Below, one piece after another: positions 14,378 to 21,226 of a stretch of DNA of 21,226 nt. Source of the DNA: a virus. Every line of letters starts with the position of its first letter. Positions within the stretch are counted from its first letter, which is position 1. A program made the position numbers and the translations under genes. A model generated the notes under the pieces. The model was given only the letters and a program-made list of their open reading frames with translations. It did not search any database and had not been told where the DNA came from. The stretch lies in the IMG/VR virus record IMGVR_UViG_3300009081_000049, positions 1 through 21,226 of that record; one strand, 5' to 3'.

Positions 14378-14383
14378 TGTTTT

Positions 14384-14414
14384 AAAAAAAAGCCCCTCTC
14401 ATAAGAGAGAGGCT
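14384..14414 (-). terminator. Strong intrinsic terminator after the major tail protein gene
   Basis: On the minus strand the RNA folds as AGCCUCUCUC, loop UUAU, then GAGAGGGGCU. This is ten base pairs, one of them a G-U wobble, followed directly by an eight-base T run counting the last stem base. It lies between the stop of the tail-tube gene (14439) and the next ATG (14377). The complementary strand has no T run after the hairpin, so the direction is clear. It probably lowers transcription of low-copy tail-tip genes relative to capsid and tube genes. Confidence 0.9.
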
Positions 14415-14438
14415 CAAAGCAAAAAATATGAAAAAAAA

Positions 14439-15374
14439 CTAAACAGACGGAGCTTCTGCAACAGTAAATGTTGCTTGTCCTTTAAATAAATTCCCTAAAG
14501 AATCTTCGGCGACATCATCCGAACCATCACGCAATTTCAATATCACAACTGCATCTTCATCTAAAGCCGTTACAGTAGCCGTGTATTTACCTGTTGCATT
14601 TGAATAACTAACAGCCGTTACCGGATTGTTAACACCATCTGCCGTAACTACATAATTTGTAATTGCATCTAAAGAAGTAATTAAATCGTCATTGTTACAA
14701 GCAGAAGCCACTTGAAAAACAATAGAAGTAGAACCATCAACAACTGTATCAACAGTTATCTTAGCATCAACAACACCCTCAACCTCTAAGGCATTGAATC
14801 CTAATTCTTCCCATGTAATAAATTGGAAACGTAAATTGAACTCCTCAGCATCCAATAATTGGATTTTAGCCATCGACATTTGCGGATCAGTACCCTGAAC
14901 AAGTTTGAAAGTTTCAACATCAAACAATCCCATGTTTAAACCTTTCAATTTAGTAGCTGCCTGATTTGTGGCCACTAAAAGACCTTTGTCAAACAACATA
15001 GCCAAATCCCATTTTGATTTTCCTGATTTGTCATATAAAGACTTGTGGAAACATCCACCTTTATCAAACGAAAATGTAAATTGTGGCTTACCGTTTCTAA
15101 CTTTTGACAATACTCCAGTACTTGAAGTGTTCACTTCGTTATCCGGTGTAGTTTGCTCAAAGTTGTATATTCCCAAAAATGGAAACAATCCAAATGCTTT
15201 AATTCTGTCTTTCCAAGTTGCTTCATCAAGCGTGTCAGTAGCAACATCCCATGTAAAGCCTTTAGTTAACAATCCAATCCCTAAAACATCGCCAAAGGTT
15301 TGGATATCGCAACTTCTGCTTCCTGTACCTCTTAAATCGGTCGTACAGTTACCGTATGAATTTAAATTTATCAT
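14439..15374 (-). CDS. Major tail (tube) protein with C-terminal Ig-like domain
   Basis: This 311-residue protein begins with an N-terminal segment containing two cysteines, C10 and C22, around TDLRGTGSRS. The tube-like domain spans about residues 1-198 and includes TFSFDKGGCFHKSLYDKSG and MSMAKIQLLDAEEFNLRF. A linker at about 198-204 leads to a C-terminal Ig-like domain (about 200-306) with the SbsA/Big_5 pattern: AKITVDT, then ITNYVVTADG, then GKYTATVTA, and a final strand ending FKGQATFTV. Such C-terminal Ig domains often decorate tubes of siphoviruses. Position, size and the strong terminator that follows it fit the abundant tube subunit. It stops with TAG at 14439. Confidence 0.88.
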   Translation of the reverse strand: MINLNSYGNCTTDLRGTGSRSCDIQTFGDVLGIGLLTKGFTWDVATDTLDEATWKDRIKAFGLFPFLGIYNFEQTTPDNEVNTSSTGVLSKVRNGKPQFTFSFDKGGCFHKSLYDKSGKSKWDLAMLFDKGLLVATNQAATKLKGLNMGLFDVETFKLVQGTDPQMSMAKIQLLDAEEFNLRFQFITWEELGFNALEVEGVVDAKITVDTVVDGSTSIVFQVASACNNDDLITSLDAITNYVVTADGVNNPVTAVSYSNATGKYTATVTALDEDAVVILKLRDGSDDVAEDSLGNLFKGQATFTVAEAPSV

Positions 15375-18087: not shown

Positions 18088-18915
18088 TTAAAATAAGTTT
18101 ACGTTAATAATTGTTTTTGTTGTTGTTGTTTGAGTGTCTTGCAACGGCTCGGTTTGTTCTGCTGGAGTGTCTTTAACGGCTTCAACTGATATTGTAGGAG
18201 TTGCAAAGTTTGAACCTTTTACAACTGCTGAACCTTCTACTACTTTAGCTTCGGAAACTACCCAAAAATAACCCCTTTCATCTGCAACCTCTTTATTGGC
18301 TATTTCATTATAATATTTATCCCAGACTTCTTTTTCTTCTACATCAAATTTAGATTCTGAATTAACGGCTAAATCTAATTTAACATAACGCATCCCTACT
18401 GAGTGTTCTTTTACATATCCTTTTGCATATTGCTCAAACATAAACGGATTGCGTATCTTTGGAATGTTAGCTTCAAAAGTTAACGCTTCGGTTGTTCCTT
18501 TGTAACTATATCCTAAATCAGACCATTTCATTTCCATTACACTTGCTTTCACTTCATCTGTTATGATTTTGTCAAAAGTCATTTGATGTTCTTGCAATAA
18601 AAGTAAATTCTTTTGTTCCTTTACTGATTTATTCCAAATACCCTTAACGTGCAAATCGTTGTGACTGTCTAATAAATTGGTTGTGTTGATTATTAATTTA
18701 GCTTTTAAACCATTTGCATCAGCTAAAGGCATTGATTCCGCTTTTACTACTTCGCCTTTGTCGTTTTCAATACCTACATAATGAAAAGTTGCATCAGCAT
18801 CTTTAGTAATCATTTTCTTTTGAGCAATCAAAGTATTTTTATTATCCCTTAATGCTTTAAACAATTCATCTTGTGTAGCAAATTGTCTGTCCGGAAATTC
18901 TTTAACTACTATCAT
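18088..18915 (-). CDS. Prohead protease (HK97-type, S78 family)
   Basis: This 275-residue protein has the two signature sites of the HK97 prohead protease family. The first is a His in LLLLQEHQM (H110), preceded by an LLDSHNDLHVKGIW stretch (81-94) that fits the D-x-H-x-D ... G-x-(W/F) opening. The second is the Ser in VKEHSVGMRY (S172). The enzyme would remove the N-terminal helical part of the capsid protein during head maturation. Residues about 240-275 form a Thr/Gln/Pro-rich tail (EQTEPLQDTQTTTTK), likely disordered. The ATG overlaps the small upstream gene by 4 bases (ATGA, 18912-18915). The length is a little above the usual 180-220 residues because of the tail. Confidence 0.88.
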   Translation of the reverse strand: MIVVKEFPDRQFATQDELFKALRDNKNTLIAQKKMITKDADATFHYVGIENDKGEVVKAESMPLADANGLKAKLIINTTNLLDSHNDLHVKGIWNKSVKEQKNLLLLQEHQMTFDKIITDEVKASVMEMKWSDLGYSYKGTTEALTFEANIPKIRNPFMFEQYAKGYVKEHSVGMRYVKLDLAVNSESKFDVEEKEVWDKYYNEIANKEVADERGYFWVVSEAKVVEGSAVVKGSNFATPTISVEAVKDTPAEQTEPLQDTQTTTTKTIINVNLF

Positions 18916-19013
18916 TTCTTTATAATTTTATCCTCTTTCAAGGCTTTTAATTTATCTTTTGTTTCCTGTTCAATTGCTTTCTCAATTTCGGCTTTTGTTA
19001 ATTTTGTACTCAT
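18912..19013 (-). CDS. 33-codon gene between portal and protease
   Basis: This short reading frame has ATG at 19013 and stop TGA at 18912-18914. Its ATG overlaps the portal's TGA stop (ATGA, 19010-19013), and its TGA overlaps the protease's ATG (ATGA, 18912-18915). The product is a lysine/glutamate-rich helix that starts MSTKLTKAEIEKAIEQ and ends KEDKIIKK, probably amphipathic. Exact coupling on both sides and the helix-forming composition argue that it is translated. Without it the portal and protease would be separated by 94 bases, in a module where other gaps are below 25 bases. I recognise no family. It may act in head assembly, or its main role may be to carry ribosomes from portal to protease. 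Confidence 0.72.
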   Translation of the reverse strand: MSTKLTKAEIEKAIEQETKDKLKALKEDKIIKK

Positions 19014-20179
19014 AACGTTTCGATTTTGATTCCTAACTCCCTTGCTAATTGTTCATTTTCTAACTTTAATTTTATCACTTCTTGTTTTTCCTTTTCAAAT
19101 ACTTGGCTAAACATTAAATGACTCCATTCCATTCTTATATCTTCTAATCCAAATAATACTTCAAACTTATCCGTTAAATCTTGTCCGCTTGGCTTTAAAC
19201 TGTATTCGACGTGTCTTGCAGTTGCTTTCTCTTGGTTCTCATATGTTGAGCCTCTTAAATTAGCTTCAAGAACATCTCTTGGTATTCCATACATCGTTCC
19301 TATCATAAAATAGTCATTGTAGAAACTTTCATCTAATTTTAAACGTGCAATATCATCAACAAATCTTTTTATATCAATAGGCTTTTTAACTGCGTGTACT
19401 TTTTTGCCACTTCTTAAAACCGTTTCAATACTTTCTTTATCCTCTTGGCCTAACGGTATTTCGCTCAAACTGTCATTCTTTTGACTTGCAATAAACTGCT
19501 GAGAAAATTCAAGGTTGACCGCTTTTGCATTTAATGCTTGTTCAGAATTTCCGATAACTTTGTAAAGGCTATCTAAAACACTATTCCCTAAATACCAATT
19601 TCCACCTATTCCATTTGTAGTATCAAAAAAGAATGTTAAGTCAGAAATACGAATATTTGAAGTTAAGCCGTCCTCGAATGTATATGTTAGTGTTTGCCTT
19701 TGTTGTTCATCAAATGATTGTTTGCTAAATAGCATTCTGCTAAACTTACTTTTACCGTTACTGAAATCAAAGTTAGCAGGATTCAACCAATATAGTTGAG
19801 TGCTTTCATTCATTGTATTGTTGGTTCTGTATAGAATCGCTTGTCCTAACATTTTCCAAAACATATAATCCCAAAAAAACTGTGTCCAACTTTGATAAAA
19901 ATTAGGTTGCTTTTTTATTGAGTATAAAAAGTTTATCTCTTTTAACTCATCATTTTGATATTGGTTTACTTTTCCAAGCGAAAACAAATCACAATTTAAC
20001 TTAAAGACTTTTGTACAAGCTGGGTTCAAAAGCACCGCATTAAGTTTCTGCTGATAGTTTGTGTACTCTTTTGAAGTTGCTCCAGCTCTAAACATTTCTG
20101 TAAACCAATTGCCCTCATTATCTCTTGTAAGTGATAATGGTTGCTTTCCCCAATCTAAATTAAAACTGAATCGTGCCAT
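19010..20179 (-). CDS. Portal protein (HK97-type)
   Basis: This 389-residue protein shows the pattern of HK97-type portals. Residues about 95-120 contain a WDYMFWKMLGQAILYR helix and strand, followed by a YWLNPANFDF segment (130-139). A central wing/stem part follows. The conserved GTMYGIPRDVLEANLRG STYENQEKA region (294-319) contains the G-x-P and S-T-Y-x-N residues of the family. A C-terminal helix (KEKQEVIKLKLENEQLARE) closes the crown end. The length is close to that of the HK97 portal (about 400-430 residues), slightly short. The start lies 11 bases past the T-run of a terminator hairpin, and the stop overlaps the next 33-codon gene. The leader AATATG has no clear Shine-Dalgarno site. 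Confidence 0.9.
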   Translation of the reverse strand: MARFSFNLDWGKQPLSLTRDNEGNWFTEMFRAGATSKEYTNYQQKLNAVLLNPACTKVFKLNCDLFSLGKVNQYQNDELKEINFLYSIKKQPNFYQSWTQFFWDYMFWKMLGQAILYRTNNTMNESTQLYWLNPANFDFSNGKSKFSRMLFSKQSFDEQQRQTLTYTFEDGLTSNIRISDLTFFFDTTNGIGGNWYLGNSVLDSLYKVIGNSEQALNAKAVNLEFSQQFIASQKNDSLSEIPLGQEDKESIETVLRSGKKVHAVKKPIDIKRFVDDIARLKLDESFYNDYFMIGTMYGIPRDVLEANLRGSTYENQEKATARHVEYSLKPSGQDLTDKFEVLFGLEDIRMEWSHLMFSQVFEKEKQEVIKLKLENEQLARELGIKIETL

Positions 20180-20190
20180 ATTAAATAAAC

Positions 20191-20236
20191 AAAAAAAGCG
20201 TACTGCTATCTAAATTAATAGAAGCAATACGCTTAA
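20191..20236 (-). terminator. Strong intrinsic terminator immediately before the portal gene
   Basis: On the minus strand AAGCGUAUUGCU pairs with AGCAGUACGCUU (12 consecutive pairs including one G-U). Three more pairs (UCU with AGA, after one bulged U) close an eight-base AUUAAUUU loop. A seven-base T run follows at 20191-20197. The T run is about 11 bases upstream of the portal ATG at 20179. The strand direction is clear because the opposite strand lacks a T run. Any transcript from the terminase side must pass this hairpin for the portal and capsid genes to be expressed. Confidence 0.88.
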
Positions 20237-20270
20237 AACTTTGTTGTGCTGTCTTTACGTCCATTAATTT
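20212..20270 (-). promoter_or_regulatory. Leader segment complementary to the terminator loop (possible anti-terminator)
   Basis: The terminator loop and part of its stem (minus strand TCTATTAATTT, 20212-20222) can pair over 11 bases, with one G-U, with AAATTAATGGA at 20260-20270, upstream in the same RNA. The alternative helix includes the UCU that forms the top of the terminator stem, so both cannot form together. This is the layout of an attenuator. However, the region is AT-rich and the pairing could be chance. An additional small hairpin at about 20272-20294 (AAAGTG with CACTTT) lies upstream. Confidence 0.45.
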
Positions 20271-20297
20271 GAAAAGTGCATCTTCACACTTTGAAAG

Positions 20298-20305
20298 CAA
20301 AAGTA
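20298..20305 (-). promoter_or_regulatory. Possible Bacteroidota -7 element
   Basis: The minus strand reads TACTTTTG, a perfect TAnnTTTG match to the -7 element described for Bacteroidota. It lies 32 bases after the terminase stop codon. No good TTG (-33) partner is visible about 17-25 bases upstream, so strength is doubtful. If used, transcription would begin near 20291, giving a leader of about 100 nt before the terminator. It is uncertain whether this feeds the portal gene or ends as a short RNA. Confidence 0.35.
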
Positions 20306-20336
20306 TAAAATAAATATTGAATAATTTGTTTATTTG

Positions 20337-21226
20337 TTATATTTTTTTTATTACTCCGAAATCGAACAACTTTTGAACGCAATAAGCAGTACTATCAATT
20401 AGGTGATTATCTTGGTCAATTGGCTCTTCTTGAATGACTCCAAACTTGTCTTTTTGATAGCAATAGTTTTCTTGTTCTAACTCTATATTCTTTGAAGTAT
20501 CTGTATAATAGATATTTAAACCTTGTAGCATTTGTATTCTGTCCAGTAGTCTTGACTTACCACCAACGGCCACCGCATTTTCATAACCAACCCTACGAAG
20601 TGAAACAATTTTGTTTGGTCTGTTATTATCGCAAACAATTATTTTATTCTTTGGGATGTTTAGCTTTTGAAATAACCAACTAACTAAGCCATCTTCATCA
20701 GCTCCATTAATAGAATGTAAATCCATTGATGAAAGTGAACGTCTTATTTCATTCTCACTTGCGTAGTTATGCTCATGAAGATATAAATTACCATCGCTAT
20801 ATTTAGCCTCAACTATTGCAAACGGGTCAACTGTTCCCCAATCGACTCCGAAATATGATTCTTTATTTAGATTTAAAAACTCAATGTAAGGAATTGACTT
20901 CCAATTGTAAATACGTCCTTCAACTTGTCCAACTTGGCCGAGTCCGTACACTCGCCACATATTCGCCCAATATTCATTTATTACCTTACCATCTTGCAAA
21001 AATCCCTTTTCCTTATATCTTAATATTTCCCCTTTTTCTTCTTCTGATAAAAATTCATTATCTAAATAAGTAAGGTTTATAAAATCGCAATCGTTCCGGG
21101 TCATTACTTCGGTGTGAAACCAAAACTTTGCATTTGGATTAAAATCGATTATTACTCTTTTTGCACGGGATGTTAATTCACGGTATGTGTCAAACTTTAC
21201 TTTGTTTGCTTCATTTACAAAAACAA
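20337..21226 (-). CDS. terL: Terminase large subunit, N-terminus outside window
   Basis: The reading frame is open through 21226, so this is the C-terminal 295 residues of the packaging motor. The first visible residues are VFVNEANKV, the likely Walker B region, then RVIIDFNP near residue 23, a segment typical of terminase_3-type proteins. The ATG at 21104 is internal. The nuclease domain is complete: FGVDWGT (Asp at fragment residue 128), IIVCDNNRP (Asp 199) and DQDNHLIDSTAY (Asp 277) supply the three acidic residues of an RNase H-like fold. The ATPase Walker A part lies beyond the window. It ends with TAA at 20337. A 157-bp gap separates it from the portal, which is unusual here. Confidence 0.92.
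   Translation of the reverse strand, partial: VFVNEANKVKFDTYRELTSRAKRVIIDFNPNAKFWFHTEVMTRNDCDFINLTYLDNEFLSEEEKGEILRYKEKGFLQDGKVINEYWANMWRVYGLGQVGQVEGRIYNWKSIPYIEFLNLNKESYFGVDWGTVDPFAIVEAKYSDGNLYLHEHNYASENEIRRSLSSMDLHSINGADEDGLVSWLFQKLNIPKNKIIVCDNNRPNKIVSLRRVGYENAVAVGGKSRLLDRIQMLQGLNIYYTDTSKNIELEQENYCYQKDKFGVIQEEPIDQDNHLIDSTAYCVQKLFDFGVIKKI

Follow-up and report, generated by a model that had tools for sequence, protein, structure and literature searches.

A candidate transcription attenuator, coupled to translation, in the portal leaders of Bacteroidota phages

In phage lambda, the late promoter pR' gives rise to a short terminated transcript (i.e. 6S RNA) that ends at the terminator tR', ahead of the morphogenesis genes, and this arrangement is controlled by Q. 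In the pyrBI operon of Escherichia coli, an intrinsic terminator sits within the 135-bp leader peptide gene directly before the first structural gene, and a ribosome following closely would keep the hairpin from forming (PMC4824070). Attenuators of the trp/his type also place a leader peptide and a terminator before structural genes but use competing RNA pairings, and their leader peptides end >20 bp before the terminator (PMC4824070). In the Bacteroidota, transcription ends prematurely in the 5' leaders of Bacteroides capsule operons and is relieved by UpxY, a NusG paralogue from the same operon (PMC7819879). Nothing on attenuation or antitermination of late genes in Bacteroidota phages was found in the open-access literature, and how head genes are switched on in these phages is poorly described.

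The portal leader of the window

The window (i.e. the whole 21,226-nucleotide stretch of viral DNA that was analysed) carries on its minus strand the 3' part of a terminase large subunit gene (20337–21224, truncated by the window end; PHROG terminase families, E 5e-17), followed by a portal gene (19010–20179). The portal is the ring through which phage DNA gets packaged; this one was recognized by a match to PF04860 (E 4e-6, under Pfam's own cut-off) and by 39.5% identity to the portal annotated in Olleya phage Harreka_1. A stretch of 157 bases separates the stop of the terminase gene (20337) from the ATG of the portal gene (20179). A 33-codon ORF (MSTKLTKAEIEKAIEQETKDKLKALKEDKIIKK, 18912–19013, minus strand) that was missing from the ORF list lies between the portal gene and the one that follows it, and the matching position in annotated phages is occupied by a small hypothetical gene. 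A second strong terminator-like hairpin, GAGCCTCTCTCTTATGAGAGGGGC followed by T8, lies at 14378–14438 on the minus strand, within the late operon and after gene 14439–15374. Scans of genome contigs for prophage relatives produced no matches.

Ahead of the portal gene, a Bacteroidota-type −7 promoter element (i.e. TACTTTTG, consensus TAHHTTTG) is present at 20298–20305 on the minus strand, in agreement with the TAnnTTTG match that had been picked out by a sequence-only reading of the window. It is the sole intergenic TAHHTTTG of transcription sense in the window. As the T of the −7 element is placed at −12 and the G at −5 in F. johnsoniae, the same spacing rule applied to TACTTTTG puts the predicted transcription start at ~20293 (PMC6847099). 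The leader from promoter to terminator is ~100 nt long. It ends in the hairpin P2 (20196–20234, minus strand), which has the hexaloop UUAAUU and a folding energy of −20.1 kcal/mol (z about −7 versus shuffles), and in a T run (20191–20197) whose last two bases are also paired in P2. The T run ends 11 bases from the portal ATG, so that the strong hairpin and T run noted in the earlier reading were borne out. Folding of 20180–20310, which that reading had proposed, gave a z of −3.96, with 0 of 200 shuffles as stable. The P2 terminator was not among the results of a simple terminator scan. No Rfam match was obtained for the leader in the window even at E≤1, and none of 16 related loci reached the gathering threshold.

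Two features of the leader were absent from the sequence-only reading. One is a hairpin at the 5' end, P1 (AAAGUGU-GAAGAU-GCACUUU; 20273–20292, minus strand), which was identified by folding and by comparison with relatives; its loop is GNRA-like and bears start codons at the apex. The other is a leader ORF of 27 codons (i.e. MDVKTAQQSFKRIASINLDSSTLFLFI*; 20181–20264, minus strand) that crosses the terminator, its stop starting 4 nt before the portal ATG. The two are joined by a mini-ORF (GUG...UAA, encoding VKMHFSN*; 20264–20287, minus strand) that starts in P1 at GUG 20287 and ends in a stop sharing bases with the AUG that follows (UAAUG).

The window resembles pyrBI in that an intrinsic terminator is placed between the promoter and the first structural gene and that the leader ORF extends into and through this terminator. 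It differs in that the operon is a phage head operon with a Bacteroidota promoter, that the ORF is shorter and that the start codon is carried on a 5' hairpin; pyrBI also has a UTP-sensitive polymerase pause whereas no U-rich pause was seen here by eye. Unlike the trp/his leaders, the window ORF does not end upstream of the terminator. The order of late promoter, short terminated RNA, terminator and morphogenesis genes is shared with lambda pR'/tR', but the lambda leader lacks a comparable ORF through its terminator, and no Q-like protein or Q binding site was found here. Premature termination in a Bacteroidota 5' leader is shared with the UpxY-dependent capsule operons, but the window contains no such NusG paralogue gene and the available part of the UpxY account describes no leader ORF (PMC7819879).

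Recurrence and conservation in related phages

Well over 100 loci were collected from portal-gene searches and annotated phages. Two of these, L002 and L003, are near identical to the window, and other close kin have portal identities of 86% (L036, over the first 114 residues), 93% (L004) and 73% (L005). The TAnnTTTG element is found at the terminase/portal junction in many relatives. A subset also has a terminator, whose end mostly lies 15–18 nt short of the portal ATG; in this subset the promoter is mostly found 99–126 nt upstream of that ATG. Relatives such as L006–L024 have the promoter only, with a gap of 12–22 nt. In a mechanical count, a promoter with a terminator preceded 20/98 portal genes as compared to 5/562 other genes of the same loci (Fisher p 1e-13). 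The unit of promoter, leader, terminator and portal suggested by the sequence-only reading is therefore a recurring one; the pairing between loop and leader that was to operate it is unsupported as a conserved mechanism (see below). A reading of the terminator as the end of the terminase operon, with a separate promoter for the portal, was rejected for the window: the 11 nt after its T run are too short for a promoter, and where other genes intervene in L089, the unit remains next to the portal.

Comparisons were made among about 20 distinct portal leaders of Bacteroidota phages, which are mutually related (perhaps a dozen lineages, by estimate), so that the counts given here are not independent. 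These leaders share a layout but not a sequence. What is conserved is the P1 hairpin, a tiny ORF that starts from P1, a terminator that is entered or crossed by this ORF and a stop that usually lies beside the portal ATG. As far as can be read from the sequences, the layout with a terminator inside a tiny leader ORF is common to many related Bacteroidota viruses.

P1-like hairpins, defined by a G-first loop of 4–6 nt and an apical AUG or GUG, were found in 16/19 leaders as compared to 1.0 expected when the first 75 nt of the leader (for L005, the 75 nt preceding the terminator) were searched. Only this looser count is usable, because a stricter loop pattern came from the same data. The loops were GUGA, GUGAU, GCGAU, GAGAU, GAAGAU, GAAGAC, GAAGCA and GAUGAU, and the stems varied in sequence while pairing was kept. 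Two leaders, L041 and L043, have a P1 loop GGGA that lacks a start codon.

An ATG-initiated leader ORF of ≥23 codons abutting the portal ATG was present in 15/19 leaders (17/19 with GTG), as compared to 1.1 expected after dinucleotide shuffling in which the final 10 bases were left unchanged. In 15 leaders, the ORF frame contains 0 stops in 392 codons as compared to 66/754 in the other two frames; as the frame was chosen for being open, the fair comparison is that with shuffles. When translation was followed from the P1 start codon, it entered or crossed P2 in all 21 tabulated leaders, with the start codon chosen by hand and with L041 and L043 omitted for their lack of a P1 start codon, both of which weaken the count; L041 and L043 also disagree in frame. 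Translation ended 2–7 nt from the portal ATG in 18 of the 21, and in 15 it ran directly from the P1 start until a stop positioned between −2 and −4 relative to this ATG. A mini-ORF comes first in the window, L036 (VKTHFSD*, with an overlap as in the window) and L122, its stop overlapping the next AUG (UAAUG or AUGA). In L004, L005 and L194, the ORF ends within P2 or where P2 begins, and not beside the portal ATG. Two leaders retrieved after the hypothesis was formed (i.e. L288 and L289) both fit an ORF running from the P1 start to P2. Changes in the leader ORF between diverged pairs were spread evenly over codon positions and were mostly non-synonymous, indicating that the open frame matters and the peptide does not; conservation of a leader peptide for its amino acids was rejected on these grounds.

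The pairing of both hairpins was retained between the window and L036, with 23/23 pairs kept and four double changes (P2, 16/16 pairs and three double changes; P1, 7/7 pairs and one double change). This covariation comes from two sequences and has a weak shuffle control, reached by 28/500 shuffles, but slid versions were paired in ≤54% of cells. A loop-anchored alignment of eleven P2 hairpins contained 26 double-change cells versus 7.0 in shuffles, and pairing was 90%, falling below 50% once the partner was slid. The search for covariation in related phages, as advised by the earlier reading, hence found P2 to covary in both comparisons. By eye, the P2 hexaloop is often UUNAUU. Within the viral collection, the arrangement AAGCGTA..TATTAATTTA..TACGCTT was limited to four stretches: two belong to the clade of the window, and the leaders of the other two (i.e. 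L232 and L249) stand before a capsid-like gene and also have a promoter and P1.

A proposed role for the ribosome and its alternatives

The sequence-only reading had proposed that the terminator loop and upper stem pair over 11 bases with an upstream segment of the leader, as an RNA switch. This pairing exists in the window (about 20271–20261 with about 20222–20212, minus strand), and the extended duplex of −15.1 kcal/mol was equalled by only 1% of shuffled leaders. As a switch controlling P2, it fared poorly. Equivalent pairing reached p<0.05 in 1/19 leaders (median p 0.5), so that complementarity was not kept in related phages. In L036, the closest of the diverged relatives, the corresponding duplex weakens from −9.1 to −5.0 kcal/mol, eight pairs (two of them G-U) still being possible by eye. 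When competing structures were folded, enforcing the pairing gave −20.1 kcal/mol as compared to −28.8 kcal/mol for the terminator fold, a loss of 8.7 kcal/mol, and A/T complementarity comes easily with a recurring UUAAUU loop. The pairing was dropped as a conserved mechanism after this test in 19 leaders; it is probably not the mechanism, and control of P2 by such a switch appears highly improbable. The conserved, mutually exclusive antiterminator pairing of trp-type attenuators was likewise not found, which is what a switch operated by the ribosome would predict.

With somewhat more confidence than doubt, we propose that the leader is a translation-coupled transcription attenuator before the portal and the head operon. 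RNA polymerase would start at ~20293, make the ~100-nt leader and, by default, stop at the U run after P2 (20197–20191), yielding a short RNA. A ribosome initiating at the apical start codon of P1 (GUG 20287) would translate the mini-ORF, transfer at the overlapping UAAUG to the leader ORF of 27 codons and then move into the terminator. There it would melt P2 or prevent its formation, allowing the polymerase to read on into the portal gene, and it would end 4 nt from the portal ATG, where it could restart. The promoter match, P1, P2, the ORF, the abutting stop and start codons and their conservation are taken from sequence and comparison; from these we infer that P2 would terminate transcription in vivo, that the ORF would be translated, that translation would lower termination and that this would bear on the timing or level of head-gene expression. 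Expression of the head genes would probably depend on a ribosome close behind the RNA polymerase, and the likeliest control point for leader translation is P1, which bears the start codon.

Terminator hairpins are blocked by coupled ribosomes (PMC7819879). Without a pause, however, E. coli ribosomes are poor at suppressing a terminator that falls within the first 100 bp of a coding region (PMC4824070), so that termination would be the default and readthrough conditional. No conserved U-rich tract or pause site was seen upstream of P2 by eye in the leaders. Bacteroidota ribosomes, to our knowledge, do not use Shine-Dalgarno sequences, and the portal leader would offer a natural test of ribosome-polymerase coupling in such a phylum. 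The recurring unit of promoter, start-codon hairpin, leader ORF, terminator and portal offers a directly testable candidate switch.

Translational coupling only, with the leader ORF opening a hairpin that masks the portal start and termination at P2 being weak or absent, would also account for the stop and start codons, which in most leaders abut at distances of −2 to −4. This is rather unlikely, as a U run follows P2 in nearly all leaders and the constant position of P2, 15–18 nt before the ATG, exceeds the needs of a masking hairpin. A stand-alone RNA of ~100 nt, bounded by the promoter and the terminator and acting elsewhere while the portal is expressed by readthrough, is less probable still: leader sequences are very different among relatives whereas the ORF and the portal distance are constant, and an Rfam match is absent. 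Both ends of such an RNA are defined, and L044 and L077 appear by eye to have a second TAnnTTTG-like element between terminator and portal; a terminated ~100-nt RNA is, moreover, predicted under every attenuator model.

The main rival is an antiterminator that binds P1. P1 would then be an RNA site of the nut, put or LoaP type, at which a phage or host factor modifies the polymerase to pass P2 as well as terminators further on. The role of the leader ORF would be secondary. The conserved promoter-proximal RNA hairpin typical of such systems is present here as P1, and its GNRA-like loops on varied stems suggest a bound factor. The boxB hairpins of lambda also have GNRA-like loops. The further terminator-like hairpin within the late operon (14378–14438) fits this explanation, as does the prevention of termination by UpxY proteins in Bacteroides 5' leaders (PMC7819879). 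Against it, there is no explanation for an ORF that stays open across P2 and ends beside the portal ATG, no recurring boxA-like element was seen by eye and no candidate factor has come to light. We regard antitermination as possible but clearly the less probable explanation.

The distribution of P1 also bears on antitermination. A scan for TTTG followed after 4–26 bases by ATGTTGTGAAACAT returned at least 120 stretches. Among 92 distinct P1 sites, the full TAHHTTTG was present in 47/59 with a spacing of 7–15 as compared to 4/33 at other spacings, against a background of 7%. The genes behind these sites were mostly portals following a terminase-like protein (named by similarity to annotated portals) or capsid-like genes (named by reading the sequence only). 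Most portal P1 sites lack a terminator. Flavobacterium phages of the Lillamyvirus/Muminvirus group have the promoter and a GUUGUGAAACA motif, with no terminator. P1 is therefore older or more general than the attenuator and has some additional role, and antitermination stays alive as a rival; across many phages, terminator-less portals included, the spacing between promoter and P1 varies little. A tentative extension, to which we give little weight, would make P1 a dedicated cis-acting RNA element, widespread in the late operons of Bacteroidota phages, a GNRA-like 5' hairpin that carries the leader-ORF start codon and is bound by a phage factor, deciding both ribosome entry and polymerase passage of the terminator into the head genes. 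P1 could help to locate late promoters in viral metagenomes.

Other observations at related loci

Several loci contained further elements. In L218, L267 and L186, a second small hairpin (i.e. GAAGUAGGACUACUUC or similar) is present between the terminator and the capsid-like gene. In the cultured Tenacibaculum phage JQ (L286, MT002873.2, about 560–690), TATTTTTG is followed by a leader and by a terminator, GTCTAAGCTGTAAAAGTTTAGGC with T7, that runs directly into the portal ATG; a leader ORF was not evident before this portal. Olleya phage Harreka_1 (L045, about 2820–2970) has an unannotated ORF of ~48 aa, resembling a membrane protein, between terminase and portal with a hairpin within it, and similar ORFs occur in L067–L071. 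Before the portals of L027, L028 and L029, an inverted repeat (e.g. TGACAAATAGCATAATTGTCA) reaches the −7 element and by eye resembles a repressor operator over the promoter. An identical long hairpin was found in L011 (about 980–1025) and L020 (about 430–475) ahead of two unlike endonuclease-like genes, by eye one GIY-YIG-like and one HNH-like, as if carried by a mobile element.
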